A DNA stretch of 64,000 nt from Malaciobacter pacificus (GCF_004214795.1 NZ_CP035928.1:62001-126000), one strand, 5' to 3'; positions 25,466-39,532 are shown, counted from the first letter of the stretch. A program made the numbers and translations. The notes: generated by a model not told the origin, from the letters alone.

Positions 25466-26125
25466 ATGAAGATATTATTACTAGAAGATGATTTAATTTT
25501 AAATGAAATTATCGAAGAACACTTAATCAATTTAAAATATGATGTTATTACTACATTTAGTGGTAGCGAGGCTCAAGACTATTTATATTCACAAACCTTT
25601 GATTTATTATTATTTGATGTGAATGTTCCAGATATAAATGGTTTTGAGCTTTTAGAAGAGTTAAGAAAACAAAATATAAAAACACCTGCTATTTTTATCA
25701 CTTCCCTTAATATGGCTGATGATATGCAAAAGGGTTTTGATAGTGGATGTGATGATTATATAAAAAAACCATTTGAATTAAAAGAGTTAGACTTACGAAT
25801 AAATAATATAAAAAGACTTTTTAATATTACTTCAACACATATAATAGATATTGATACAAATACAAAACTTGATACAAACCAACTTTTAGTAATAAAAGAG
25901 CAAGATGAGATACATATTGCAAAAAAAGAGTGTGAAGTACTACAGTATTTAGTTAGAAATAAAGACAAAAGTGTCAGTGTCGATGAATTGATATTAAATG
26001 TATGGCCTTATGAAGAAGCTCCAAATACTTCAACAATAAGAAGCTATATAAAAAGATTACGAAAGATTTTAGGTGAAGAAAAAATTACTAATATAAGAGG
26101 AGTTGGATATAGACTTAACAGTTAG
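25466..26125 (+). CDS. OmpR-family response regulator
   Basis: A 219-residue two-domain regulator. The receiver domain (1-115) has the phosphorylation site Asp51 in LLLFDVNVPD and the conserved Thr/Lys positions (FITS, KKPFE). The winged-helix DNA-binding domain covers about 135-219 (SYIKRLRKILGEEKITNIRGVGYRL). It is paired with the overlapping histidine kinase gene and probably activates or represses nearby genes such as the MFS exporter. The mRNA appears leaderless. Confidence 0.93.
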   Translation: MKILLLEDDLILNEIIEEHLINLKYDVITTFSGSEAQDYLYSQTFDLLLFDVNVPDINGFELLEELRKQNIKTPAIFITSLNMADDMQKGFDSGCDDYIKKPFELKELDLRINNIKRLFNITSTHIIDIDTNTKLDTNQLLVIKEQDEIHIAKKECEVLQYLVRNKDKSVSVDELILNVWPYEEAPNTSTIRSYIKRLRKILGEEKITNIRGVGYRLNS

Positions 26126-27260
26126 TGAAAAAAGTACTTTCTTTAGATTCTTAGTACTTTATTTAGGCTCTTCTTTTATTTTAATGCTAATTGTAGCAAT
26201 ATTATATTTTCAAAATGAAAAAACTTTATATACTGATTTAATAAAATCAGAAATGCAAAACATAACATCTAAAGTATCAAATGAGATTATTTATTCACAT
26301 ATGATGGGAAGTAAGTTTGAAAAAGAGAAATATCTAGAATCAAAGCAGTATCAAATATCTTTCTATGATTTTACTAAAAGAAAATTGTATGGAACATTAG
26401 ATGAAAAAATTGATTTTACTAAAAAGTTTACTTTTAAAGATGATGAAGTAATTTTAGTAGATAATTCAACGGTAGGTCATTTAGGTATAGAGTATGTTGT
26501 TTTAAAAGATACAAGTCTTAACTTTAAAATAGAAAAGTTAAAAATATCAATACTATGGATGTTTTTATTATCTTGCATTTTTGTTTCATTTATAGGTTTC
26601 TATTTATCAAAACTGTTTTTAAAACCATTAAAAGAAGAGAGAGAAAAGTTAAATAATTTTATAAAAGATACTACCCATGAATTAAATACTCCAATAAGTG
26701 CTATTATGATGTCTAGTGAAAATGAAGAACTAAATTCAAAACAAATTCAACGTATCAGATTAAGTGCAAAAAGAATATCTGAAATATATAAAGACTTAAC
26801 ATATATTTTTTTAGAAGAGAAAGAAAAGACTAAAGAGCTAAAAGAGATAGATATTTCTAAGATTATAAAAGAGCAAATTGATGGCTTTGAACCTTTATAT
26901 TCTAAAAAGAGAATAGAAGTGGAAATTAAAGTTGAAAATATGAAATATATGATATTAGAAGATGATTTTATTAGATTATTTAACAATCTTTTTTCAAATG
27001 CAATTAAGTATAATAAACTAAATGGAAAAATAGAAATAATCTTAAAAGATAAAACTTTAATTATCAAAGATTGGGGAATAGGAATAAAAGAAGAAAAAAT
27101 TAAAGATATTTATAATAGATATTATAGAGCTACTTCACTAAATGGTGGTTTTGGATTAGGCTTAAATATTGTAAATATGATTTGTAAAAAATATAACATA
27201 AAAATAGAAGTTAGCTCACAAGAGAATATAGGAACAACTTTTAAATTACTACTTAACTAA
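26103..27260 (+). CDS. sensor histidine kinase
   Basis: A 385-residue membrane kinase. Two transmembrane helices (about 14-36 and 146-169) flank a periplasmic sensor loop of about 110 residues. The HisKA box TTHELNTPISAI contains the phosphorylated His192. The ATP-binding domain has NLFSNAIKYNK (N box), KDWGIGI (G1) and GGFGLGLNIV (G2). The ATG used overlaps the regulator gene by 23 bp; no clearly better start is seen. The stimulus is unknown. Confidence 0.92.
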   Translation: MDIDLTVSEKSTFFRFLVLYLGSSFILMLIVAILYFQNEKTLYTDLIKSEMQNITSKVSNEIIYSHMMGSKFEKEKYLESKQYQISFYDFTKRKLYGTLDEKIDFTKKFTFKDDEVILVDNSTVGHLGIEYVVLKDTSLNFKIEKLKISILWMFLLSCIFVSFIGFYLSKLFLKPLKEEREKLNNFIKDTTHELNTPISAIMMSSENEELNSKQIQRIRLSAKRISEIYKDLTYIFLEEKEKTKELKEIDISKIIKEQIDGFEPLYSKKRIEVEIKVENMKYMILEDDFIRLFNNLFSNAIKYNKLNGKIEIILKDKTLIIKDWGIGIKEEKIKDIYNRYYRATSLNGGFGLGLNIVNMICKKYNIKIEVSSQENIGTTFKLLLN

Positions 27261-27271
27261 AAAAGAAAAAT

Positions 27272-28414
27272 ATGAAAAAATATGATTTGTTTATAATAGT
27301 GTACTGTATTATTATAGTTTTATCTGTAATGTATGCAACTCAACCACTTCAACCACTTTTGGCAAAAGAGTTTGATGTATCCATAACAAAAGCCTCACAG
27401 TTTACAGCGGTGATTATGCTGTTTTTAGCAATTTCTCCTATTATATATGGATATATTTTAGAAAAAGTAAATGCAAAAAAAATGCTTATTAACTCTTCCA
27501 TAATACTATTTATTACAAATATTTTTTTAGGACTTGCAAGTAATTATGAATTATTCTTACTTTTTAGAACTATTGAAGCGCTAGTAATCCCAGCAATGCT
27601 TACATCACTTATGAGTATCTTAGCAAATATTGATAAAGAAAATATCAAGTTTAATATGTCAATTTATGTAGCTGCAACGGTATTTGGAGGATTGTTAGGA
27701 AGAGTTTTCTCTGGATTTATAGCAACCAATATCTCTTATCATTGGGTATTTTACTCTTTATCTTTTGCTATATTAATTTCTATATATTTTGTAAGTAAGT
27801 TAAGTTATGAAGGTGAAGCAACAATAGTTAAGCCTAAAATAAGTGATGTAACTGCTATTTTAAAAGATACAAGATTCTCTACAGTTTATTTACTTATGTT
27901 TTGTGTATTTTTTGTATTTGCTGGAGTTTTAAATGTATTACCTTTTAGATTAAAAGAGATTTCAACTGATATATCAGAATTTCAAATATCTTTACTTTAT
28001 TTAGGTTATGGAATGGGAATTTTGGTATCTTTAAATTCAAAAAAGATTATAAAGTTTTTTAAAAGTGAAGTAAATACTATTTTAGCAGGATTGATTTTCT
28101 TCTCTTTTATTACAATCTTTTTAACAATACCAAATGTAATGACAATGTTCTTACTGATATTTCTTTTTTGTTTAGGAATGTTTACAGTTCATACTGTAAG
28201 TACGGGGCTTGCAAACTCTCTAAAAGCATCTCAAAAATCATTAACTTCTGGAATGTATTTAACCTTTTATTATTTAGGTGGAGCTATTGGCTCATTTGTT
28301 CCTTCAATTATATATGAAAAGTTTGGTTGGAATAGTGTTATTTATATGTTTTGTGGGATTTTAATTTTAATAATAATACTTGTATTAAATAAAAAGAGAT
28401 TCTATTTACATTAA
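27272..28414 (+). CDS. MFS transporter (YnfM/arabinose-efflux-like)
   Basis: A 380-residue protein with about 12 membrane helices. The N-terminus (VMYATQPLQPLLAKEF) and the pattern FGGLLGRVFSGFIA in helix 5 resemble the YnfM-type drug/sugar efflux branch of the major facilitator superfamily. It starts 11 bp after the histidine kinase gene, so it is probably part of the same transcript and a target or tool of that two-component system. The substrate cannot be inferred. Confidence 0.8.
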   Translation: MKKYDLFIIVYCIIIVLSVMYATQPLQPLLAKEFDVSITKASQFTAVIMLFLAISPIIYGYILEKVNAKKMLINSSIILFITNIFLGLASNYELFLLFRTIEALVIPAMLTSLMSILANIDKENIKFNMSIYVAATVFGGLLGRVFSGFIATNISYHWVFYSLSFAILISIYFVSKLSYEGEATIVKPKISDVTAILKDTRFSTVYLLMFCVFFVFAGVLNVLPFRLKEISTDISEFQISLLYLGYGMGILVSLNSKKIIKFFKSEVNTILAGLIFFSFITIFLTIPNVMTMFLLIFLFCLGMFTVHTVSTGLANSLKASQKSLTSGMYLTFYYLGGAIGSFVPSIIYEKFGWNSVIYMFCGILILIIILVLNKKRFYLH

Positions 28415-28529
28415 ATTCATAAACCTTTAACTCCACATATTTTACACACAAAATAGTATAAAATTTTTTAAATAAAATAAAGGAGTCAACTATAAAGAAA
28501 CCTAACTAAAAAACAAAGATTTTAAAGTT

Positions 28530-29726
28530 TCATTTGGAAACACCTAAAGCTAAATTTTCATCAAATTTGGTTTTGTTCTTTAACATTACAAATATTGTTT
28601 TTAGAAGTTTATTTGCAACAGCAATAACAGCTTGTTTGAATTTTTTACCTTCTTCTCGTTTTTTAGAGAAATAGAGTTTAAATTTTTCACAAGAACGAAT
28701 AGTACCAATTGCCATTTGCCAAATAGTTCTTCTAAGGTTTGCATTACCTCTTTTAGAGATTTTGCCCCTATAGTTGATTGAAGTACCACTTTGTCTAACT
28801 GATGGGTCAATTCCTATAAAAGCACATAGTTGCTTTACGGAATTAAACTTATCAACAGAGGATACTTCAACCATAAAGTTTTTAGAAGTTACTGCTCCAA
28901 TTCCTGGTATTGATTGTACTATATCAATATCATTGTTTATATCAGTATCTTCTAAAGAGTTTTCCAACTCAGAATCTAGAATAGATAATTCATCTTGAAT
29001 AGCTATTAATCTTCTAATTTTAGAAGTTAAAACCTTTTCAAGATATTTATCGGATACGGCGATAGAAGTTTTTGCTAAGGCTAATATATCCTTTGCAGTA
29101 ATTTTAACTTTATTGCCACTTGTATCATCTAAGATTCGTTGGATGGTCTTTTCCCTTAAGTTCCTAATTGCTTTACGGCTAGGAGCTTTAAGGAGCAGAT
29201 TTAAAATGCTCTTTGTAAATATATTTGTGTTCTTTAACAATTCAGGGAATAATTGCACTAAATTAGCTTTTATTTCAGTTTTTAATCTTGCTACATCTTT
29301 CGAGAGGTTTTCTCTTTCACGGATAAGCGGTCTAATATTTTCAATATTATTAGTACTAGCAAGATGTAAAGATTGATATGATTTTAAACTAAATAGAGCA
29401 ATTGAAGCTGCATCTTTTTTATCATTCTTAGTTTTTCTAAGGGTAGTTGAACCAATAAAACTCTTTATGAGTATTGGATTAATCACTACACACTTAAAAC
29501 TATTTTCTAATAAAAAAGATAATAGTGGTAAATGATAAATACCAGTTGCTTCCATTGCTATTAAAAGCTCTTCTTTAGGATATGTGGATAAATACTCTAC
29601 TAAAGTATCAAATCCATCTCTATTCATTGTAAGCTTTACTTCTAGTTTAATTTCACCACTATTTTCAAGTAGTGTTAAATCAAAGCTATCTTTAGAAATA
29701 TCTATTCCTATGAATTGTTTATACAT
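28530..29726 (-). CDS. IS110-family DEDD transposase
   Basis: A 398-residue recombinase starting at ATG 29724-29726 (an in-frame GTG lies one codon upstream; AAAGG is 8 nt from the ATG). The N-terminal RuvC-like DEDD domain has GIDISKDSFD, AMEATGIYH and KNDKKDAASIA. The C-terminal Tnp domain has SIPGIGAVTSKNF, AFIGIDPSVRQSG, and SKRGNANLRRTIWQMA with the catalytic serine region. It is full length with no frameshift, so it is potentially active. Enzymes of this family are guided by a structured bridge RNA encoded in the element's non-coding end. Confidence 0.93.
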   Translation of the reverse strand: MYKQFIGIDISKDSFDLTLLENSGEIKLEVKLTMNRDGFDTLVEYLSTYPKEELLIAMEATGIYHLPLLSFLLENSFKCVVINPILIKSFIGSTTLRKTKNDKKDAASIALFSLKSYQSLHLASTNNIENIRPLIRERENLSKDVARLKTEIKANLVQLFPELLKNTNIFTKSILNLLLKAPSRKAIRNLREKTIQRILDDTSGNKVKITAKDILALAKTSIAVSDKYLEKVLTSKIRRLIAIQDELSILDSELENSLEDTDINNDIDIVQSIPGIGAVTSKNFMVEVSSVDKFNSVKQLCAFIGIDPSVRQSGTSINYRGKISKRGNANLRRTIWQMAIGTIRSCEKFKLYFSKKREEGKKFKQAVIAVANKLLKTIFVMLKNKTKFDENLALGVSK

Positions 29727-29751
29727 CACAAATACCTTTACAAATGTTATT

Positions 29752-29773
29752 TTACATACAAACAGATAAGTAA
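29752..29773 (+). repeat. left arm of a 22-bp inverted repeat in the IS110 upstream region
   Basis: The sequence at 29752-29773 is the reverse complement of 29918-29939 at 21 of 22 positions. The arms are 144 bp apart. They sit in the non-coding region between the transposase start and the next plus-strand gene. Confidence 0.85.
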
Positions 29774-29917
29774 CCTTACTTTTATCCTATCTCCATAATG
29801 ACAGAAGCTCGAAGCTTAATCAACCTATTGGGATTTGAAGTAAGTGATAGACTCCTTGGAGATTTAATAAAACTTCATTAAAAGTTCTATCATTGATCTA
29901 AAAAAAATGTGATCATC
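29774..29917 (-). ncRNA. candidate IS110 bridge RNA region
   Basis: 144 bp of non-coding sequence upstream of the transposase, enclosed by the 22-bp inverted repeat. In the transposase sense it can fold several hairpins: GATAGA pairs with TCTATC around an inner CTCC-AA-GGAG hairpin, and AAGCT-TCG-AGCTT forms another. IS110-group elements encode their guide (bridge) RNA in exactly this place, with target- and donor-binding loops. Position, size and hairpins fit; boundaries and guide loops are not determined. Confidence 0.45.
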
Positions 29918-29939
29918 TTACTTATCTCTTTGTATGTAA
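29918..29939 (-). repeat. right arm of the 22-bp inverted repeat
   Basis: Partner of 29752-29773 (21/22 complementary). It ends about 30 bp before the start of the YtkA-like gene, so it may mark the element's end or the base of a long RNA stem. Confidence 0.85.
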
Positions 29940-29968
29940 TTATACAAAATTTATTAGTAGGAGAAATA

Positions 29969-30352
29969 ATGAAGGTTTTATTTAAAACTTTTTTAGCACT
30001 ATTAATAACTATTGGATTCTTAAATGCAGAAATTGTTGAGCAAGTTGGGGAGAAAAATGGTTATGAAGTAGAATTAACAACAACAAAATCTTTGGTTGTA
30101 GGTGATAATGACTTTTTTGTAACATTATCAAAAGATGGAACTAAAGTGACTGATGCAAAAGTAAAAGCAAAATTCTTTATGCCAGAAATGCCAGGTATGC
30201 CATATATGGAATATGAGGATAAAGCAAAACTAGTAAATGGCAAATACAAGATGATGATTAATTTCTCTATGGGTGGAACATGGCAGTATCAACTAAAATT
30301 TAAAACATCAGATGATAAAGTGCATACAATTAGAGGAAGTGTGAACTTATAA
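29969..30352 (+). CDS. YtkA/FixH-like periplasmic protein of the metal operon
   Basis: A 127-residue protein from ATG 29969, chosen over an upstream in-frame ATG at 29909 because it has the ribosome binding site AGGAG and starts a proper signal peptide (cleavage after LNA). The mature part is a beta-sandwich-like YtkA domain with DAKVKAKFFMPEMPGMPYMEY; this methionine/proline-rich loop could bind copper. It starts a run of genes, overlapping the outer-membrane factor gene by one base. Likely a metal-binding accessory protein for the RND pump. Confidence 0.75.
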   Translation: MKVLFKTFLALLITIGFLNAEIVEQVGEKNGYEVELTTTKSLVVGDNDFFVTLSKDGTKVTDAKVKAKFFMPEMPGMPYMEYEDKAKLVNGKYKMMINFSMGGTWQYQLKFKTSDDKVHTIRGSVNL

Positions 30353-31548
30353 TGAAAAAGCTAGCTTTGACTTTTATTATTTGCTCATCTTTAAGCTTTG
30401 CTGCATCAATAGATGAAATCGTTTCAAATAGTTTACAAAATAGTAGTGATTTAAGAAGTTTAAATCACTCTATTAAAGTAGCAAATGAGAATATAAAGCT
30501 AGCTTCAAAATGGAGTGATCCAGTTTTAAGTTTAGGGTTTAATGATATTCATTTTACTAAGCCTTTTAAAAGAGATAAAGAAGCAATGCAGGCTTCTTTT
30601 ATCGGACTTTCTCAAGTAATACCTACAAATGATAAATTGGAGATAAAAGAGAAAATCGCTTTAAAAGATATGCAAATAAAGTCTTTAGTATTAGAAGATA
30701 AAAAGTTAAAGCTAAAAGCTAAGATTTATGAATTAGCATATTCAATAGTAGTTTTAGAAAAAAAGCTAAAACTACTAAATGAGTATGAAAAAAATATCAA
30801 AACATTAGAGTCTTTATCTAAATCTCTTTATGAATTTGGAAAAGCTACACAAAATGAAGTACTTGATACAAAAGTTTTATTTTTAAATGTGCAGATACAA
30901 AAACAAAAATTAAAAAATCTAATTGATAATTTATATTTAAAGTTAGAGCAAATATCTTATATGAAAATAGATGAGATTTCTCAAACAAAAACACAAAATC
31001 TTTCTAAACTAACTTTAAATATGAATAGTGATGAACATCCAATTATAAAGCAAGAGTATGTAAAATCAAAAAGGTATATGTACCTTTCAAAGCTTGAAAA
31101 AGCAAATGAAACCCCTGATATAAAGCTAAATGTGACTTATTTTAACAGAGACAATAAGTTTGAAGATTATGCAAATATTTCTGTAAATATTCCTTTAGCT
31201 ATAAACAATACTCAAAGTGTGAAATCTTTAAAAGCAAAGTTTGAATCAAATAGAGTCTCTTCAAAACTTGATGATACAAAAAGAGTTTTACAAACAGAAC
31301 TTAAAACTTATATAAACAATGCAAACAGTGCTTATGTAAACTATGAGCTTATTAAAAAACAGGTTTTACCACTTAAGAATAAAATCCAAAAAAACCTTGA
31401 AAACTACAATAGCTTTTCAAGTGTAAAACCACAAGATTTAATTAAAAATCTAAATGAGTTAATCTCATTTGAGATAAAAGCCTTAGATGAAAAGTTTGAG
31501 TACTTTTCAAACTATTCAAAAACAAAATATTATACTTTAGAGGACTAG
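30352..31548 (+). CDS. TolC-family outer membrane efflux protein (CusC/CzcC-like)
   Basis: A 398-residue protein with a signal peptide (ending SFAAS) and long amphipathic helices rich in K/L/E, the outer-membrane factor pattern of two repeated coiled-coil hairpins. ASKWSDPVLSLGF after the first helix is typical of heavy-metal OMFs. It would form the exit duct of the tripartite pump with the next two gene products. Overlaps the upstream stop (TAATGA). The lipobox of some CusC proteins is absent. Confidence 0.85.
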   Translation: MKKLALTFIICSSLSFAASIDEIVSNSLQNSSDLRSLNHSIKVANENIKLASKWSDPVLSLGFNDIHFTKPFKRDKEAMQASFIGLSQVIPTNDKLEIKEKIALKDMQIKSLVLEDKKLKLKAKIYELAYSIVVLEKKLKLLNEYEKNIKTLESLSKSLYEFGKATQNEVLDTKVLFLNVQIQKQKLKNLIDNLYLKLEQISYMKIDEISQTKTQNLSKLTLNMNSDEHPIIKQEYVKSKRYMYLSKLEKANETPDIKLNVTYFNRDNKFEDYANISVNIPLAINNTQSVKSLKAKFESNRVSSKLDDTKRVLQTELKTYINNANSAYVNYELIKKQVLPLKNKIQKNLENYNSFSSVKPQDLIKNLNELISFEIKALDEKFEYFSNYSKTKYYTLED

Positions 31549-31551
31549 TAA

Positions 31552-32568
31552 ATGCAGAAGTTTTATTTAAAAAGTGCAATTTTTCTATCAATATTTATTT
31601 TTACAAATTTAAATGCAAAAATTATAGAAGCTGAGCAGTTATTTAATAAAAAAGTAACGAAAGTAAAAAAAGAGTCAATTTCTATTAATAAAAGTTTTTA
31701 TGGAAAAACAGTTATTGATGAAACATCAATAAAAGATATAGTAACAAGATTTGATGGCTATATTACTAAATTAGATGCAAATAAGACATATATGAATATA
31801 AAGAAAAACCAAACACTTTTCTCTGTATATTCTGATGAAATTCAAAGTTTACAAGATGAATTAAAAATAGCAAAAACATTTAATAAAAATATTTATAAAA
31901 GTACTCTAGTAAAATTAGAAAATTTAGATATATCTCAAAGTGAGATAAATAGAATAAAAAAAGGAACGGTTTCTAAAAATGGTATTAATATCAAAGCTAA
32001 TAGCAATTCGATTTTATTAAAAAAGAGTATAAATAGTGGTAGTGCAGTTAAAAAGGGTCAATTACTTTTACAGTTAGCTTCACTAGATAAAATTTGGGTA
32101 ATAGCTTCAATATATCAAAGTGATTTATCTTTTGTAAAAAAAGACATGCCTGCAAAAATAAAAATTGATGGGGTATCAAAGGAAATTGAATCAAAAGTTG
32201 ATTTTATCTATCCTATTTTTGATGAAAGTAGTAAAACAGTTGATGTTAGATTTATAGTAGATAATAAAGATAATACTCTTTATCCAAGTATGTTTGCAAA
32301 AGTTAATATAAGTAAAGAGAAAAAATCTATGCTAACTCTGCCTAAAAGTGCAGTTTTAAAAAAAGCAAATGATTATTATGTATTTAAACCAGTTTCAAAA
32401 ACTGAGTTTGAACCAGTAAAAATAAGTGCCACAAGAATCTCATCTAATAGATATAAAATTACAAGTGGTCTAAGTGAGGGTGATGAGGTTATAAATAATG
32501 CCTTATTTTTATTAGATTCAGATGCTATTACAAATGCTTTATATACATCTGATGATGAAGATTGGTAA
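31552..32568 (+). CDS. RND efflux periplasmic adaptor (CusB-like)
   Basis: A 338-residue membrane fusion protein. It has an N-terminal signal sequence (ending NLNA), a split lipoyl-like/barrel-sandwich domain (IVTRFDGYITKLDANKTY and NSGSAVKKGQLLLQLASLDKIW), a short coiled coil (about 95-130) and a beta-barrel region with GLSEGDEVINNALFLLDSD. It links the inner-membrane pump CusA to the TolC-like duct. Spaced 3 bp from the previous gene. Confidence 0.87.
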   Translation: MQKFYLKSAIFLSIFIFTNLNAKIIEAEQLFNKKVTKVKKESISINKSFYGKTVIDETSIKDIVTRFDGYITKLDANKTYMNIKKNQTLFSVYSDEIQSLQDELKIAKTFNKNIYKSTLVKLENLDISQSEINRIKKGTVSKNGINIKANSNSILLKKSINSGSAVKKGQLLLQLASLDKIWVIASIYQSDLSFVKKDMPAKIKIDGVSKEIESKVDFIYPIFDESSKTVDVRFIVDNKDNTLYPSMFAKVNISKEKKSMLTLPKSAVLKKANDYYVFKPVSKTEFEPVKISATRISSNRYKITSGLSEGDEVINNALFLLDSDAITNALYTSDDEDW

Positions 32569-32573
32569 TAGTT

Positions 32574-35500
32574 ATGGTTGAAAATCTAATATCATATAGT
32601 ATTAAAAACAAATTTTTAGTATTGATCTTAACTTTAGTTTTAACTGTTGGTTCATTTTGGGCAGTTAAAAACACAAGTTTAGATGCCTTACCTGATTTAT
32701 CACCTCCTCAAGTAATTGTGCAAGTTAAGTGGGCAGGGCAGAGTCCAAAGACTATTGAAGAACAAGTTTCATATCCTCTTATTTCCAATCTAATGAGCTT
32801 ACCAAATATTGAGACAGTTAGAGCTATGAGTTCATTTCAAAATGCGCTTATATATATCATCTTTAAAGATGGGACTGATTTATATGATTCAAGAAATAGA
32901 ATACTAGAGCAATTATCACAACTACAAGGGACTTTTCCAGAAGGTGCAACTGTAGCAATTGGTCCAGATGCAACAGGTGTTGGATGGGCTTATGAATACG
33001 CTTTAAAATCTGATACAAAAAGTTTAGATGAGTTAAGAACTTTACAAGACTATTACTATAAATATGCACTTTTAGGTGTTGATGGCGTTAGTGAGATAGC
33101 ATCAATTGGTGGGTTTATTAGAAACTATGAAATCACACTTGATCAAGATAAAATGGTTCAATATAATCTTGGAATTAATGAAATAAAAAATGCAATAACT
33201 TCAAATAATGATGATAAAGGTGGAAGAATCATTTTAGAAAATGGTTTTGAGCACATGATTCAAGCAAAGGCTTATCTAAAATCATTAAAAGATATTGAAG
33301 ATATAACTATTAAAACAGTGAATTCAATTCCATTGAAAATTTCAGATATTGCCCAGGTTAATATTACTTCAGCAAATAGAAGAGGAATGGCTGATTTAAA
33401 CGGGCAGGGTGAAACTGTTGGTGGAATTGTAGTTGTTAGATATGGTGAAAATCCATATAAAGTAATTAAATCAGTTAAAGCAAAACTTGAAACTCTAAAA
33501 ATTGATGGAGTTGAAGTTGTTGAGACTTATGATAGAACATCATTGATTGATAAAGCAATTGATACACTCAAAAATACACTTATTGAAGAATCTATTATTG
33601 TTATGGTGATTACAGCACTATTTTTATTCCACTTTAGAAGTGCACTTATTATTATAATTACTTTACCTATTACTGTATTGCTTACATTTTTTCTTATGAA
33701 ACTATTTGGAATAGGTTCAAATATAATGAGTTTAGGTGGTATTGCTATTGCAATTGGAGCGATGGTTGATGCAACTATTGTAATGGTTGAAAATGCTCAC
33801 AAATATCTTCAAGGTAAAGAGAATATCTCAAATAATGAAAGAATAGAAATTATTATAAAATCAGCTAAGCAAGTAGGGCGACCAATATTCTTTGCACTAG
33901 TTCTTGTTGTAGTTTCATTTTTACCAATATTTGCTCTAACTGGACAAGAAGGTAGATTATTTACTCCACTTGCTTTTACAAAATCATTTGCTATGAGTGT
34001 GGGTGCGATACTTTCAATCACATTAGTTCCAATATTGATGATATTTTTTATCAAAGGTAAGATTGTAAGTGAAGATAAAAACCTATTGAATAAATTTTTT
34101 GTGAAACTTTATTCTCCATTTTTAAAGCTTGCTTTGAAACTGCGATATCTAGTTGTTTTAGTTTTTTTAGGGACATTAGTTTTAGGTGTAATGACATACA
34201 AAAAACAAAACTGGGAATTCATGCCTATGATGAATGAGCAAACTTTTATGTATATGCCTGTAACTCCTTATGGAATAGGAGTTGATTTAGCAAAAGAGTT
34301 AACTCAAAAGACTGATAAGATTTTAAAATCATTCCCTGAAGTTGAGACTGTATTTGGAAAAGCTGGGCGAGCAGATACTGCAACGGACCCTGCACCACTT
34401 GCTATGATTGAAACAATAGTTACATTTAAGCCAGAATCGCAATGGCGAGAGGGTATGACATATAAAAAACTAATGAGTGAAATGGATAATGCACTAAGAG
34501 TAAATGGACTTATTAACTCTTGGACATATCCAATTAGAGGTAGAATTGATATGCTTCTAACAGGTATTAGAACACCTCTTGGAATTAAATTATATGGAAA
34601 TGACCATGAAAAATTAGAGCAGACAGCTGGATTAATTGAACAAAAATTAAAAAAATTTGATAAGACACTTTCTGTTTCAACTGATAAAATAAATTCAGGG
34701 TATTACTTAAATGTTGATGTAAAAGAAGAGATGATAGCTAGATATGGTATTTCTAAAGCTGATGTTTTAAGTGCTATTAGTCTTGGAGTAGGGGGTGCTA
34801 AAATCTCAACATTTTTAGATAAATTAGAAAGATACCCTATAAGTTTAAGATATGATAGCTCATATAGAGAAGATATTACAAAATTAAACAATATTCAAAT
34901 AAAAACAAAACTAGGTATGCAACCCCTTAGTGAGTTTGCAAATCTTTATTATGAAGAAGGTCCAAGTGTAATTAAATCTGAAAAAGCATTAAATGTAAAT
35001 TTTATATATATAACACCTAAAAATGAGGTTTCAGCAAAAGAGTATAAAGATAAAGCTGTTGAACTTTTAAAGGATATAAAGTTACCAAGTGGTTACTATA
35101 TGGAATGGGCAGGTCAGAGCCAATATTTAGAATCAGCGATGGAAAGATTAATTTTTATTATTCCATTAACGTTTATGTTAATATTTATGTTGATTTATTT
35201 TGCATTGAAAAATATTAATTATACTTTGATAATATTTTTTACTTTACCATTTTCTCTTTGTGGGGGAATTTTTTATATAGAGTATTTAAATTTTAATATA
35301 TCAATTGCCGTAATAGTGGGTTTCTTAGCCCTATTAGGAGTTGCTGCTGAAACTTCAATTGTAATGTTAGTTTATTTACATGAATCAATGAAGAAGTTAG
35401 AAAAAACTTCTACAAATTTTTCTAAAATAGAAATAAGTAAAGCTATTTATGAGGGAGCAGTTTTAAGGCTAAGACCAAAACTTATGACTTTATTTGCTAT

Positions 35501-35669
35501 TTTAGGCGGATTAATTCCTATTATGTATATTAATGGAGTAGGGAGTGAAGTTATGCAAAGAATAGCAGCTCCTATGATAGGTGGAATGGTTACATCAGCT
35601 ATTTTAACTTTAGTTATAATACCAAGTATTTTTTATATTTTTGAACTTAAAAAATATAATACACAATAA
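32574..35669 (+). CDS. heavy-metal RND efflux pump (CusA/CzcA family)
   Basis: About 1031 residues from ATG 32574; an in-frame TTG at 32562 would add four. It has 12 membrane helices and two large periplasmic loops. IAIGAMVDATIVMVENAHK in helix 4 has the proton-relay aspartate of HME-RND pumps. The methionine-rich FMPMMNEQTFMYMPV segment resembles the metal-binding region of CusA, which favours Cu(I)/Ag(I) over Zn/Co. Exports metal ions with CusB and CusC homologues encoded just upstream. Confidence 0.92.
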   Translation: MVENLISYSIKNKFLVLILTLVLTVGSFWAVKNTSLDALPDLSPPQVIVQVKWAGQSPKTIEEQVSYPLISNLMSLPNIETVRAMSSFQNALIYIIFKDGTDLYDSRNRILEQLSQLQGTFPEGATVAIGPDATGVGWAYEYALKSDTKSLDELRTLQDYYYKYALLGVDGVSEIASIGGFIRNYEITLDQDKMVQYNLGINEIKNAITSNNDDKGGRIILENGFEHMIQAKAYLKSLKDIEDITIKTVNSIPLKISDIAQVNITSANRRGMADLNGQGETVGGIVVVRYGENPYKVIKSVKAKLETLKIDGVEVVETYDRTSLIDKAIDTLKNTLIEESIIVMVITALFLFHFRSALIIIITLPITVLLTFFLMKLFGIGSNIMSLGGIAIAIGAMVDATIVMVENAHKYLQGKENISNNERIEIIIKSAKQVGRPIFFALVLVVVSFLPIFALTGQEGRLFTPLAFTKSFAMSVGAILSITLVPILMIFFIKGKIVSEDKNLLNKFFVKLYSPFLKLALKLRYLVVLVFLGTLVLGVMTYKKQNWEFMPMMNEQTFMYMPVTPYGIGVDLAKELTQKTDKILKSFPEVETVFGKAGRADTATDPAPLAMIETIVTFKPESQWREGMTYKKLMSEMDNALRVNGLINSWTYPIRGRIDMLLTGIRTPLGIKLYGNDHEKLEQTAGLIEQKLKKFDKTLSVSTDKINSGYYLNVDVKEEMIARYGISKADVLSAISLGVGGAKISTFLDKLERYPISLRYDSSYREDITKLNNIQIKTKLGMQPLSEFANLYYEEGPSVIKSEKALNVNFIYITPKNEVSAKEYKDKAVELLKDIKLPSGYYMEWAGQSQYLESAMERLIFIIPLTFMLIFMLIYFALKNINYTLIIFFTLPFSLCGGIFYIEYLNFNISIAVIVGFLALLGVAAETSIVMLVYLHESMKKLEKTSTNFSKIEISKAIYEGAVLRLRPKLMTLFAILGGLIPIMYINGVGSEVMQRIAAPMIGGMVTSAILTLVIIPSIFYIFELKKYNTQ

Positions 35670-35718
35670 CTAAACATAAAAAATATAAAATTTTATTATC
35701 ACAAAAAAGGAGCGGATT

Positions 35719-36303
35719 ATGAAACTAATTAGTAAATCAGTTTTAGCATTGGCAATGTCATTAAGTCTTGTAAATGCTAGTGAATATCTACTTGATAATT
35801 CACATACAGAAGTTGGATTCTCAGTAAAGCATTTGATGATTACTAATGTTAAAGGTGAATTTAAATCTTATGATGCTGAAATTGACTTTGATGCAAAAAA
35901 TATGATTTTTAACAAATTTAATGCAACTGTTGATACAGAATCAATTGATACAGGTATTGAAAAAAGAGATAACCACTTAAGAAGTGATGATTTCTTTTTA
36001 TCTGAAAAATACCCAAAGATGACTTTTGAAATGACTTCATATAAAGCTAATGGTGATGAAGGTGAAATGAAAGGTAATCTTACTATTAGAGGTATTACAA
36101 AAGCTGTAACTTTAGAGGTTGAAGATTTATCTACAATTAAAGATTTCCAAGGAAATACAAGAGTTGGTTTTACACTTAATGGTAAAATCAATAGAATGGA
36201 CTATGGATTAAAATGGAACAAAGCTTTAGAATTAGGTGGTGTAGCAGTTAGTGAAACTGTAAAAATTATTATTGATGTTCAAGCAAAAGAAAAACAAAAA
36301 TAG
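35719..36303 (+). CDS. YceI-family periplasmic protein
   Basis: A 194-residue protein with a signal peptide (cleavage after LVNA). The mature lipocalin-like YceI barrel starts SEYLLDNSHTEVGFSVKHLM and has the usual TDSI-type and LTIRGITKAVTLEV segments. YceI proteins bind isoprenoid-type lipids in the families studied. It has a strong ribosome binding site (AAGGAG) and lies between the pump and the bufferin genes, spaced 49 and 27 bp. Role in metal stress is inferred from position. Confidence 0.9.
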   Translation: MKLISKSVLALAMSLSLVNASEYLLDNSHTEVGFSVKHLMITNVKGEFKSYDAEIDFDAKNMIFNKFNATVDTESIDTGIEKRDNHLRSDDFFLSEKYPKMTFEMTSYKANGDEGEMKGNLTIRGITKAVTLEVEDLSTIKDFQGNTRVGFTLNGKINRMDYGLKWNKALELGGVAVSETVKIIIDVQAKEKQK

Positions 36304-36330
36304 AAACTAAATTTAATTAAAGGAAAAATT

Positions 36331-36651
36331 ATGAGTAAAAAACTAAAATTAGCAGGTATGGTATTAGGTGCAGCATTAAGTACAACAGCAGCATTTGCAG
36401 GTAATGGTTCTTGTGGTGCAGGAAAATGTGGTGGTGAAGCTAAAAAAATGGAAAAGAAAGGTTCTTGCGGTGCTGGTAAGTGCGGTGGAGAGATGAAAAA
36501 GAAAGCTGATGGAGCTTGTGGTGCAGGTAAGTGTGGCGGAGAGATGAAAAAGAAAGCTGATGGAGCTTGTGGTGCAGGTAAGTGTGGTGGAGAGATGAAA
36601 AAGACAGAGAAAAAAGCAACAGGAGCTTGTGGCGCTGGTAAATGTGGGTGA
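36331..36651 (+). CDS. bufferin/HvfA-type cysteine-repeat RiPP precursor
   Basis: A 106-residue protein. A signal peptide (ending AAFA before GNG) is followed by five copies of CGAGKCG linked by Lys/Glu-rich spacers; 10 cysteines in all. The CG-[EA]-GKCG pattern and the next two genes (DUF692 then DUF2063) identify it as a precursor of the bufferin (HvfA-like) group, in which cysteines are oxidised by an MNIO enzyme to copper-binding heterocycles. All five copies have Ala where the usual motif is EGKCG. Copper sequestration in the periplasm is inferred from family and the adjacent Cus-type pump. Confidence 0.85.
   Translation: MSKKLKLAGMVLGAALSTTAAFAGNGSCGAGKCGGEAKKMEKKGSCGAGKCGGEMKKKADGACGAGKCGGEMKKKADGACGAGKCGGEMKKTEKKATGACGAGKCG
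36466..36650 (+). repeat. in-frame tandem repeats of the bufferin gene
   Basis: Units of 17 codons (51 bp) encoding [GS]-A/S-CGAGKCGGEMKKKAD repeat in tandem; two adjacent units are nearly identical in DNA. The array is coding, and copy number could change by recombination or slippage. Confidence 0.8.
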
Positions 36652-36669
36652 AATGGAGAAGATGAGTAG

Positions 36670-37491
36670 ATGATAAATTTAAAGGGTTGTGGATTAGGAC
36701 TTAGAAGTGATTTTTTACTTGATTTAAAAGATAGTAAATTTAAACCAGATTTTTGGGAAGTAACTCCTGAAAACTGGATGCATATGCCAAAAATTTTTGA
36801 AAAAGCTTTTGAGCAAGCAGTTTTTCAAAGACCAACTATAGCTCATGGTTTATCTCTATCAATTGGGTCTGTTGACAAACTAAACAAAAAGTTTGTTAAA
36901 CAGATCAAAACTTTCTTAGATAGATACAATATCGAATACTATTCTGAACATCTGAGTTTTTCATCACTAGATAATAGACAATCTTATGAACTCTTACCAG
37001 TACCAATGACTAAGAAGATGATTGAGATTATTAGTGATAGAGTTAAAGAGGTTGAGGATATTATTCAAAGAAACTTAATACTTGAAAATGCTACTTATTA
37101 TTTAGTTCCTTATAGTGAAATGGCTGAAACTGATTTCATAAATGAAGTTATGGAAAAATCAGGTGCTAAAATGTTACTTGATGTAAACAATGTATTTGTA
37201 AATTCTGTAAATCATGGTTTTAAAGCAAGAAAATTTATAGACCAAATAGACAAAAGTAAAGTAGCTTATATGCATATGGCAGGACATTATTTTGATGAAG
37301 AAGCGAATATGAAAATAGATTCTCATGGTATGCCTATTGATTCAGGTGTTTGGAAATTATTAAAATACACTTTAAATCAAATTGATGCTCCTGTAATGAT
37401 TGAAAGAGATAATAATATACCTCCTTTAGAAGAGTTAGTTACTGAATATAATAAGATGAAAAAAATTTATGAAGAAGTAAAGAATGGCTAA
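36670..37491 (+). CDS. MNIO (DUF692) multinuclear iron-dependent oxidase, bufferin-modifying
   Basis: A 273-residue TIM-barrel enzyme. Metal-ligand motifs of the DUF692 family are visible in order: HGLSLSIGS, YYSEHLSFSS, LILENATYY, MLLDVNNVFVN, AYMHMAGHY, DSHGMPIDSGVW and MIERDNNIP. These enzymes use two or three iron ions and oxygen to turn peptide cysteines into oxazolone/thiooxazole groups. It follows its probable substrate by 18 bp and overlaps the DUF2063 gene by 8 bp. Family is firm; product chemistry on this precursor is inferred. Confidence 0.9.
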   Translation: MINLKGCGLGLRSDFLLDLKDSKFKPDFWEVTPENWMHMPKIFEKAFEQAVFQRPTIAHGLSLSIGSVDKLNKKFVKQIKTFLDRYNIEYYSEHLSFSSLDNRQSYELLPVPMTKKMIEIISDRVKEVEDIIQRNLILENATYYLVPYSEMAETDFINEVMEKSGAKMLLDVNNVFVNSVNHGFKARKFIDQIDKSKVAYMHMAGHYFDEEANMKIDSHGMPIDSGVWKLLKYTLNQIDAPVMIERDNNIPPLEELVTEYNKMKKIYEEVKNG

Positions 37492-38176
37492 ACTAGAAAG
37501 AGATGTAGAAAAGAGGTTTTTTGATATTATTACTAAGCAAGAGGATAATCCAAGTTCCAATGCATATAAGGTATATCAAAAACTTGTTTATTATAGATTT
37601 GAAGAGATAATTAAAAATAGTTTCCCTGAATTTATAAAACATATTTCAATTAATGAGTTAGAAAAATCCCTATATGAATTTTTAAAAAAACCTCCTTCAA
37701 CACCTTTTGTATGGAAAATTGCTAATGATTATAGAAAATTTGTAAAGAAACAAAAACTTTTTCATAATAAAAAATATTTATATGAACTTTTATATTTTGA
37801 TTGGATTGAAGTAGAAATACTTATGAAAGAGTATAAATTTAGAAAAAACACAGAATTTTCATGGAATGAGAGTTATAAACTCTCTTCAAGCGCTAGAATT
37901 AAAAAATTTAATTTTGATATTATTAATAGTCAGTATGAGATTAAAAGAGAAAATTTTTTAGTAAGCTATTATGACTTTTCTAGGGATGAAGTTTTATTTA
38001 GAGAACTTAATGAGTTTTTATTTGTTTTATTAAAAAAATTAAATAAGAAACAGACTTTAAAAGAGGTATTGAAACTTTTATGTAAAGAGAATGAAATTAA
38101 TTTTAAAGAAGCAAAAGAATTACTAGAAGATGCAATAAAAGAGTTGTTTTCTCTTAATATTATTGTTAAATCATAG
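37484..38176 (+). CDS. DUF2063-family partner protein of the MNIO system (HvfC/BufC-like)
   Basis: A 230-residue cytoplasmic protein. The N-terminal half (YQKLVYYRFEEIIKNSFPEF, then FLKKPPSTPFVWKIANDYRKF and LYELLYFDWIEVEILM) matches the DUF2063 putative DNA-binding/peptide-recognition domain found next to DUF692 enzymes. In characterised systems this partner holds the precursor leader for the MNIO. The C-terminal half is a winged-helix-like segment. It overlaps the MNIO gene and ends the operon at a hairpin. Confidence 0.82.
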   Translation: MAKLERDVEKRFFDIITKQEDNPSSNAYKVYQKLVYYRFEEIIKNSFPEFIKHISINELEKSLYEFLKKPPSTPFVWKIANDYRKFVKKQKLFHNKKYLYELLYFDWIEVEILMKEYKFRKNTEFSWNESYKLSSSARIKKFNFDIINSQYEIKRENFLVSYYDFSRDEVLFRELNEFLFVLLKKLNKKQTLKEVLKLLCKENEINFKEAKELLEDAIKELFSLNIIVKS

Positions 38177-38194
38177 AACCTATATAGTTCTATG
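38172..38194. terminator. bidirectional terminator between the bufferin operon and MATE gene
   Basis: An 8-bp stem (CATAGAAC / GTTCTATG) with a 7-nt loop. It includes the stop codons of both convergent genes. Confidence 0.6.
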
Positions 38195-39532
38195 ACAAAC
38201 TTTTTTTAATAAGCTATTTGTATAATAGTATGCAAAAATAGCTGCAGAATAAATCATAACTAAAATTCCAAACCAAAGATAAATAAACTCTAAATCAAGT
38301 ATTTTTACTATGATATAAGCAACAAGAAATTTTGCTACAATTTGTCTATAAAGTGCAATATAAACTATCATTTTTGGTTTTTTAATTCCTTGAAGAGTTG
38401 AAACACTTATGAATAAAATAACATAAGCATAGAAAATCCAAATTTCAACAAGCAAATAATCAACTCCAAAATCTACAACAGTTGCATTTGAATCAAATAG
38501 TGAGATTAAAAATCTTCCTATAATAGTTAGTGTAATAATTCCAATAGTTGAAAGTACAAATCCATATTTTAAAGCAGTTTTCAAAATCTCAATAACTCTG
38601 TCATACTTCTTGGCTCCATAGTTATTAGAAACTAAAGTTAAAACAGCAGTACTAAGTCCTAAACAAGGAAGTAACATAAGTTGCTCAACTCTAAATGCTA
38701 TTCCATATCCTGCCATTGCTTCTATACCATAATGAGCTACAAAATAAGTAAGTATTAGTGAACCAATAGACATAATAAGCATATTTAAACTTGAAGGAAT
38801 TCCTTGTGATAAAAAGTGTTTGTATACTCTAAGATTTGGTAAAAAGTATTCTAGTTTCTCAAAGTGTATTACTTTTGTTTGAAGTACTTTGTAAAGCATA
38901 TAAAACATATTTATAACTTGTATTAAAACTGTTGCTATTGCTATACCTTGAAGTCCCATAGCAGGTATAAATAAAAATCCATATATAAATAAAGGATTTA
39001 AAACTAAGTTTGCAAAGAATCCAAATATCAAAGTATTTCTATATGTTTTTGTATCACCAAGGGCAACTAAAATAGAGTTTAGAGAAAAGTTAAACATAAA
39101 AAATATTGTTCCAAATAAAATTGGATTTATATAAGTCATTGCATCATCTAAGTACTCACCATTTGCTCCAAGTAAAGTAAATAGTGCAGGTGAAAATATA
39201 AGACCTAAGATAGATAAAAAAATACCAATAATAGGAATAAATAAAATACCTTTATGTGCATAAATAGAGGCTAAGTGATTTCTCTTTTTACCAAATGAAT
39301 TTCCAAGTATTGCAGTGATTGCTGAAGAAAAACCATATCCAAATCCAACAATTACAAAAAATACCATAAATGATAAAGTTAAAGCAGAAACGGCTTGAGT
39401 TGAGATAAGTCCAGCATAAAAAGTATCAACAACATTATACATAGTATTAAAAAACATACCTGTACTAGCTGGAATGGCTAATTGTTTTATAAGTGAGGGA
39501 ATATCCTCTGTGGTTAGTTTATTTGATTTCAA
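38180..39532 (-). CDS. MATE-family multidrug efflux protein
   Basis: A 450-residue protein with 12 predicted helices in two related halves. The N-terminal motif PASTGMFFNTMYNVVDTFYAGLI and the matching MSIGSLILTYFVAHYGIEAMAGYG in the second half are typical of the DinF/NorM-like MATE branch. It exports drugs or metabolites by cation antiport in the inner membrane. It lies 20 bp downstream of hom on the minus strand but is not functionally related to it. The substrate is unknown. Confidence 0.88.
   Translation of the reverse strand: MKSNKLTTEDIPSLIKQLAIPASTGMFFNTMYNVVDTFYAGLISTQAVSALTLSFMVFFVIVGFGYGFSSAITAILGNSFGKKRNHLASIYAHKGILFIPIIGIFLSILGLIFSPALFTLLGANGEYLDDAMTYINPILFGTIFFMFNFSLNSILVALGDTKTYRNTLIFGFFANLVLNPLFIYGFLFIPAMGLQGIAIATVLIQVINMFYMLYKVLQTKVIHFEKLEYFLPNLRVYKHFLSQGIPSSLNMLIMSIGSLILTYFVAHYGIEAMAGYGIAFRVEQLMLLPCLGLSTAVLTLVSNNYGAKKYDRVIEILKTALKYGFVLSTIGIITLTIIGRFLISLFDSNATVVDFGVDYLLVEIWIFYAYVILFISVSTLQGIKKPKMIVYIALYRQIVAKFLVAYIIVKILDLEFIYLWFGILVMIYSAAIFAYYYTNSLLKKVCHRTI

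Follow-up and report, generated by a model that had tools for sequence, protein, structure and literature searches.

Malaciobacter pacificus is a bacterium related to Arcobacter, and the DNA considered here (the window, a stretch of 64,000 nucleotides) sits in its complete 2.66-Mb genome. The window places genes of a copper pump directly before genes of a cysteine-rich RiPP system, and the locus raises the question of how the two sets are regulated and what the peptide does. The original prediction described one operon at 29969–38176. Eight plus-strand ORFs were recovered at these coordinates with gaps of no more than 49 bp, and the proposed families (YtkA; CusC-, CusB- and CusA-like; YceI; precursor; MNIO; partner) matched the Pfam and NCBIfam assignments. 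The region as described omitted the response regulator and kinase genes (25466–27260), the IS110 element before crdA and an operator with a promoter between czcA and yceI. The features of the extended locus were as follows.

25466–26125, plus strand: response regulator of the OmpR/PhoB type, CrdR-like, at the head of the locus in relatives (PF00072 and PF00486; synteny)
26103–27260, plus strand: sensor histidine kinase, CrdS-like (HisKA/HATPase; alignment of 77 sequences; sensor model)
27272–28414, plus strand: MFS transporter gene (PF07690)
28432–28448, plus strand: operator 1, TCCACATATTTTACACA, of the crdA promoter, a perfect TMCACA-N5-TMCACA, with the −10-like TATAAAAT at 28457–28464
28486–29963, minus strand: IS110-family element (transposase 28530–29729, minus strand) that entered at the AGGAG of crdA
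29969–30352, plus strand: crdA, secreted Met-rich YtkA-like copper protein with the motif FMPEMPGMPYMEYE (PF13115, 88 bits; PDB 9ll2)
30352–31548, plus strand: crdB, CusC-like outer-membrane factor, OEP (PF02321)
31552–32568, plus strand: czcB, CusB-like periplasmic adaptor, HlyD_D23/CusB (PF16576, 158 bits)
32577–35669, plus strand: czcA, CusA-like heavy-metal RND pump (TIGR00914, 998 bits; CusA residues for Cu(I)/Ag(I) conserved)
35660–35676, plus strand: operator 2, TACACAATAACTAAACA, which overlaps the stop codon of czcA, with the −10-like TATAAAAT at 35684–35691
35719–36303, plus strand: yceI, periplasmic lipocalin-like protein (PF04264)
36331–36651, plus strand: hvfA-like precursor, a signal peptide with LAGMVLGAALSTT followed by five CGAGKCG units (NF050137, 43 bits)
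36670–37491, plus strand: hvfB-like MNIO maturase (PF05114, 294 bits; 3bww; nine iron-site residues)
37484–38176, plus strand: hvfC-like partner, DUF2063/NGO1945_C (NF050145, 68.8 bits, cut-off 142; PF22106)
38171–38195, plus strand: terminator-like hairpin with a T run that closes the RiPP unit

The closest named relatives of the window were Arcobacteraceae, for example Poseidonibacter, Halarcobacter and Malaciobacter. In these relatives the genes were arranged as RR–HK–crdA–crdB–czcB–czcA–(yceI)–precursor–MNIO–HvfC on one strand, or as two divergent halves. Since the gene order was kept in many relatives, a chance grouping of the genes is ruled out; the physical linkage of pump and RiPP genes thus held up, and the shared operator adds a regulatory link to it; these links are kept throughout the family. 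The yceI gene was found 3' of the pump gene even in loci without a precursor (L251, L252, L254–L256, L259–L262, L267 and L269), which places YceI with the Crd locus rather than with the RiPP system.

The 106-residue precursor, in which a Sec-type signal peptide was recognized by inspection, contained 10 Cys and five G[SA]CGAGKCG units. Its score for NCBIfam NF050137 (HvfA-type KCG repeat) was 43 bits, above the cut-off of 19.5, whereas that for the HvfA equivalog NF050188 was 26.5 bits, below the cut-off of 95, the units being CGAGKCG and not EGKCGEGKCG. The MNIO had the full set of nine residues which are iron ligands in MbnB or indispensable in HvfB (H59, H94, E139, D171, N174, H202, D217, H219 and E245), and its score for the HvfB equivalog was 318.8, below the cut-off of 360. 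The partner scored below the cut-off for HvfC NF050145 and above that for PF22106. No DoxX-like HvfX was found among the locus genes and the next gene (MatE), all of which were assigned to other families, and the precursor matched no Pfam family, including DUF2282 (Buf1). The label "bufferin-type" is loose; with its KCG repeats, the set is closest to the HvfABC/oxazolin kind, not to Buf1/Buf2. HvfB and HvfC convert the cysteines of KCG-type repeats to copper-binding 5-thiooxazoles (PMC13419390). Because all three scores were below the equivalog cut-offs, no DoxX gene was present and the unit was CGAGKCG, the set was filed as a putative variant of that kind. The CGAGKCG core and the low scores mean that the exact modification could differ from that of HvfA. 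Outside Arcobacteraceae, the same cut-offs yielded very weak RND matches but no Crd genes in the MNIO relatives (Nitrosospira, Nitrosomonas and Thiobacillus; 35–43% identity), and no KCG precursor was seen in 20 windows around Crd loci of other families.

The distribution of the maturase was compared with that of the precursor. An MNIO was present in 36 of 104 genomes of the family, a 37th match (G034) being weak and partial, and the precursor occurred in more genomes than the MNIO. In at least 14 genomes of three genera the precursor lay beside the pump with no MNIO match genome-wide (G002, G004, G006, G010, G011, G017, G021, G022, G023, G026, G030, G032, G033 and G081). Several of these genomes were single contigs, and G034 resembled them apart from its weak MNIO match. 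The orphan precursor directly followed cusA–(yceI), except in G081, where it lay beside yceI in a divergent arrangement. A 2025 survey described such precursors as rare without an MNIO (PMC12452194). On the CusA tree, the distribution of the MNIO required seven changes, at least four of them forced by well-supported branches. An LG[AT][AT]L-type motif was found in the signal peptide of all 36 MNIO-linked precursors; a loose LGAAL-type pattern was found in 2 of 15 orphans, namely G081 and, through a different stretch, G017. Pairwise dN between orphan precursors was 0.05–0.21 and dS was 0.36–0.70, in alignments that were rough owing to the repeats. The orphan peptides are thus under purifying selection, with the LGAAL-type motif mostly lost. 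Together, the co-variation of motif and maturase and the orphan dN/dS values suggest that the motif is there for the maturase and that, without this enzyme, the peptide still has a selected function. The orphan precursor of G004 (L166:10221–10520), a genome with no MNIO, had gained a metallothionein-like CACN...CTC...CTC insert, which brought it to 12 Cys in total.

The retention of precursors by relatives without an MNIO makes it less plausible that only the modified peptide is functional. The maturase seems to be an optional addition to a peptide of the copper regulon. A broader reading is advanced tentatively, as one that may well prove right or wrong: the KCG peptide of Arcobacteraceae would belong to the core of the CrdRS copper regulon and act, unmodified, as a periplasmic thiol copper binder, MNIO and HvfC would have been gained and lost, and their loss would be followed by decay of the LGAAL motif while the Cys units remain under selection. 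Natural relatives that have retained the peptide but not the maturase make it possible to ask what the modification adds. The rival explanation, in which the peptide is an unmodified Cys-rich copper binder and the MNIO pair is a lineage-specific addition, draws on the orphan genomes of three genera, on the dN and dS values and on the insert gained in G004; it is nevertheless considered unlikely, against an MNIO that is intact in the window and an LGAAL-type leader kept in every MNIO-linked precursor, although it may hold for the orphans themselves. Since the enzyme is intact and the leader kept, modification of the peptide is likely in the window.

The four genes preceding yceI were compared with known copper systems. 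The best solved relative of the first protein was PDB 9ll2, "Copper resistance protein" (E = 2e-15), the sequence of which carries MMPEMPGMPAMKEM, fitting the motif given for the copper-binding CrdA of H. pylori (PMC9182242). The corresponding stretch in the window, FMPEMPGMPYMEYE, is of the same MxEMPGM type that marks a Crd system. On account of this relative and this motif, the genes are identified as the Helicobacter-type copper system crdA–crdB–czcB–czcA, and Crd naming (CrdAB–CzcBA) is better for them than Cus-type labels. The residues M560, M610, M659, E612 and D398 of czcA corresponded to M573, M623, M672, E625 and D405 of CusA; this pattern fits a predicted specificity for Cu(I)/Ag(I) and not for Zn/Co.

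The two sets of genes were connected by a direct repeat, TMCACA-N5-TMCACA, which starts about 25 nt ahead of a TATAAT-like box. Both operators of the window start 59 nt before an ATG, that of crdA (with the IS element removed in silico) and that of yceI. The repeat preceded crdA and the yceI/precursor genes across Arcobacteraceae, and crdA across Campylobacteria. In counts that treat related genomes as separate and thereby overstate statistical significance, exact doublets numbered 24 at the 11-bp spacing against 0–3 at any other spacing in the range 6–30, an operator score of at least 11 of 12 was reached at 44 of 55 crdA, yceI or precursor starts against 6 of 442 other genes, and in other families of Campylobacteria the operator preceded crdA in 18 of 21 loci but only 3 of 159 genes taken as controls. 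The near-uniqueness of the operator in this genome was considered as evidence and rejected; by our own estimate, base composition alone would give about one exact match in each genome by chance, so the argument rests on the conserved position across genomes. A 21-nt sequence at crdA is the reported binding site of H. pylori CrdR (PMC9927306), and by analogy we infer that the repeat may be the class-wide version of this site. Most likely, an export unit and a neighbouring buffering unit are both activated by a putative CrdR. The prediction of a CrdR operator thereby extends to an entire bacterial class, with genomes as small as that of Helicobacter among them. Short secreted KCG peptides with a perfect operator about 110 nt upstream were also seen in another family of the order (L172 and L174), and KCG repeats occurred there in lipoprotein-like proteins as well (LSACSDEK.../LSGCSDEK...; L172:9651, L174:9079 and L172 18403, minus strand).

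The position of operator 2 bears on whether crdA to hvfC form one operon, as the original prediction proposed. A single copper-induced transcript would agree with eight codirectional genes spaced by at most 49 bp and with the sole plus-strand terminator-like site, which lies at the end of the locus. The terminator scan showed none between czcA and yceI, and read-through across the 49-bp gap separating these genes is conceivable. Against these points stand the conserved operator and −10 box at that very junction, the nine relatives in which the halves lie on opposite strands, the longer, operator-bearing gap ahead of the precursor in Poseidonibacter-type loci, and the separation of crdA from its promoter by IS110 in this genome. 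A crd locus was in the same neighbourhood for 24 of the 36 MNIO loci (14 codirectional, including the window, 1 in reversed order and 9 divergent), and in further relatives the crd and hvf halves lay apart. A single transcript is hence regarded as rather improbable, and "one operon" is probably wrong. One regulon with two transcription units is the preferred reading because of the conserved operator at the junction and the opposite strands of the halves.

In this genome, the first unit was altered by the IS110 element. The element was inserted at the Shine-Dalgarno AGGAG of crdA and separates the gene from operator 1, and yceI keeps its own operator and promoter. Six near-identical copies were present in the genome (28486–29963 and five others, L071–L075), all at a Shine-Dalgarno AGGAG a few bases 5' of an ATG, one with AGGA at its right edge. 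The element looks like an IS110 that targets ribosome-binding sites and carries AGGAG at its own end. Outside this genome, one diverged copy was found (G005, 64% identity), at the ends of which the same target was not clearly seen. Because the end of the element restores AGGAG but not the promoter, the copper control of the pump may be broken here and that of the RiPP unit intact; the pump unit may have lost its link to the switch, or read-through or an IS-borne promoter may drive it.

The CrdRS-like regulator pair lies upstream of the region first described. In relatives, the RR–HK genes were directly 5' of crdA, with a usual spacing of 60–90 nt; in the window, the MFS gene and IS110 separate the kinase gene from crdA. 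The MFS gene begins about 12 bp 3' of the kinase stop, ahead of the crdA operator. It was absent from the RR–HK–crdA junction in most relatives and, judged by this synteny, is not part of the Crd system there. The junction was also longer than 1.4 kb in four relatives (L252, L253, L261 and L268). In the periplasmic sensor of the kinase, M51, H66, M67 and H126 were conserved at 90–97% in an alignment of 77 sequences. The sensor model had a pLDDT of 85, and its best Foldseek match was the silver-bound CusS sensor. TlpB, a non-copper sensor, and WalK scored as high as CusS against this model in VIA-align. The CusS-like fold was thus rejected as proof of copper sensing, PAS-like sensor folds being common. 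Divergent-type genomes (L039, L063, L064, L188 and L193, with Halarcobacter among those named) had two related regulator/kinase pairs, one per arm.

The gene content, gene order, shared operator, residue conservation and co-variation of leader and maturase were read from sequence. A copper-regulated regulon of two units, the peptide of which is matured and buffers copper in this strain, is considered likely on these grounds; copper as the signal, the activation, thiooxazole formation and copper binding or buffering are what we infer from them. In the proposed mechanism, the CrdS-like kinase would sense periplasmic Cu(I), and the phosphorylated CrdR-like regulator would bind the direct repeat just upstream of the −10 box and activate both units. 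The products of crdA–crdB–czcB–czcA would pump periplasmic Cu(I) out of the cell, with CrdA as a putative periplasmic copper chaperone. The second activated unit would be yceI–hvfA–hvfB–hvfC, in which HvfB and HvfC would oxidise the CGAGKCG cysteines in the cytoplasm, probably to 5-thiooxazoles, and the modified peptide would be exported through its signal peptide and buffer copper in the periplasm. Methanobactin is an acquisition chalkophore among MNIO-modified peptides and RND pumps can export small molecules, but a chalkophore of this type, exported by the pump in place of free Cu(I), is very improbable given a pump found without the precursor in many relatives and class-wide, its Cu(I) Met triad, an operator common to crdA, which is a copper-excess gene in H. 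pylori, and eight genes with no TonB-dependent receptor among them. In the two-unit copper regulon, one conserved regulatory sequence would join a classical RND copper pump with modified copper peptides of a class discovered only recently, and the role of the peptide in copper excess is directly testable through this link.

Among known systems, E. coli CusCFBA/CusRS shares with the window an RND Cu(I) pump with a conserved Met triad and a CusS-like modelled sensor fold; unlike in Cus, CrdA takes the place of CusF and a RiPP is present. The bufferins Buf1 (DUF2282) and Buf2 share the idea of MNIO-dependent periplasmic copper buffering. The locus differs from them in its precursor family, as DUF2282 was not matched, and in the absence of sigma/NrsF and DoxX genes; its KCG-type Cys pattern sets the precursor apart from the 6/12-Cys precursor of Buf2. 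The likeness to Haemophilus influenzae HvfABC(X)/oxazolin (Buf_EGKCG/oxazolin group) is closer and comprises the Sec signal peptide, C-x4-C repeats with GKCG, and an MNIO with an HvfC-like partner in the order A–B–C. However, CGAGKCG units replace AEGKCGEGKCG, YceI is present and the DoxX gene (HvfX) is absent, the scores are below the equivalog cut-offs, and the set in the window has a copper pump and a two-component system linked to it. The pump unit corresponds to H. pylori CrdRS/CrdA–CrdB–CzcB–CzcA in its four-gene order, protein kinds, Met-rich CrdA motif and OmpR-type two-component regulator (PMC9182242, PMC9927306). Unlike in H. pylori, the regulator genes of the window are close to the pump genes, and the locus adds yceI and a RiPP unit that has a separate operator copy.
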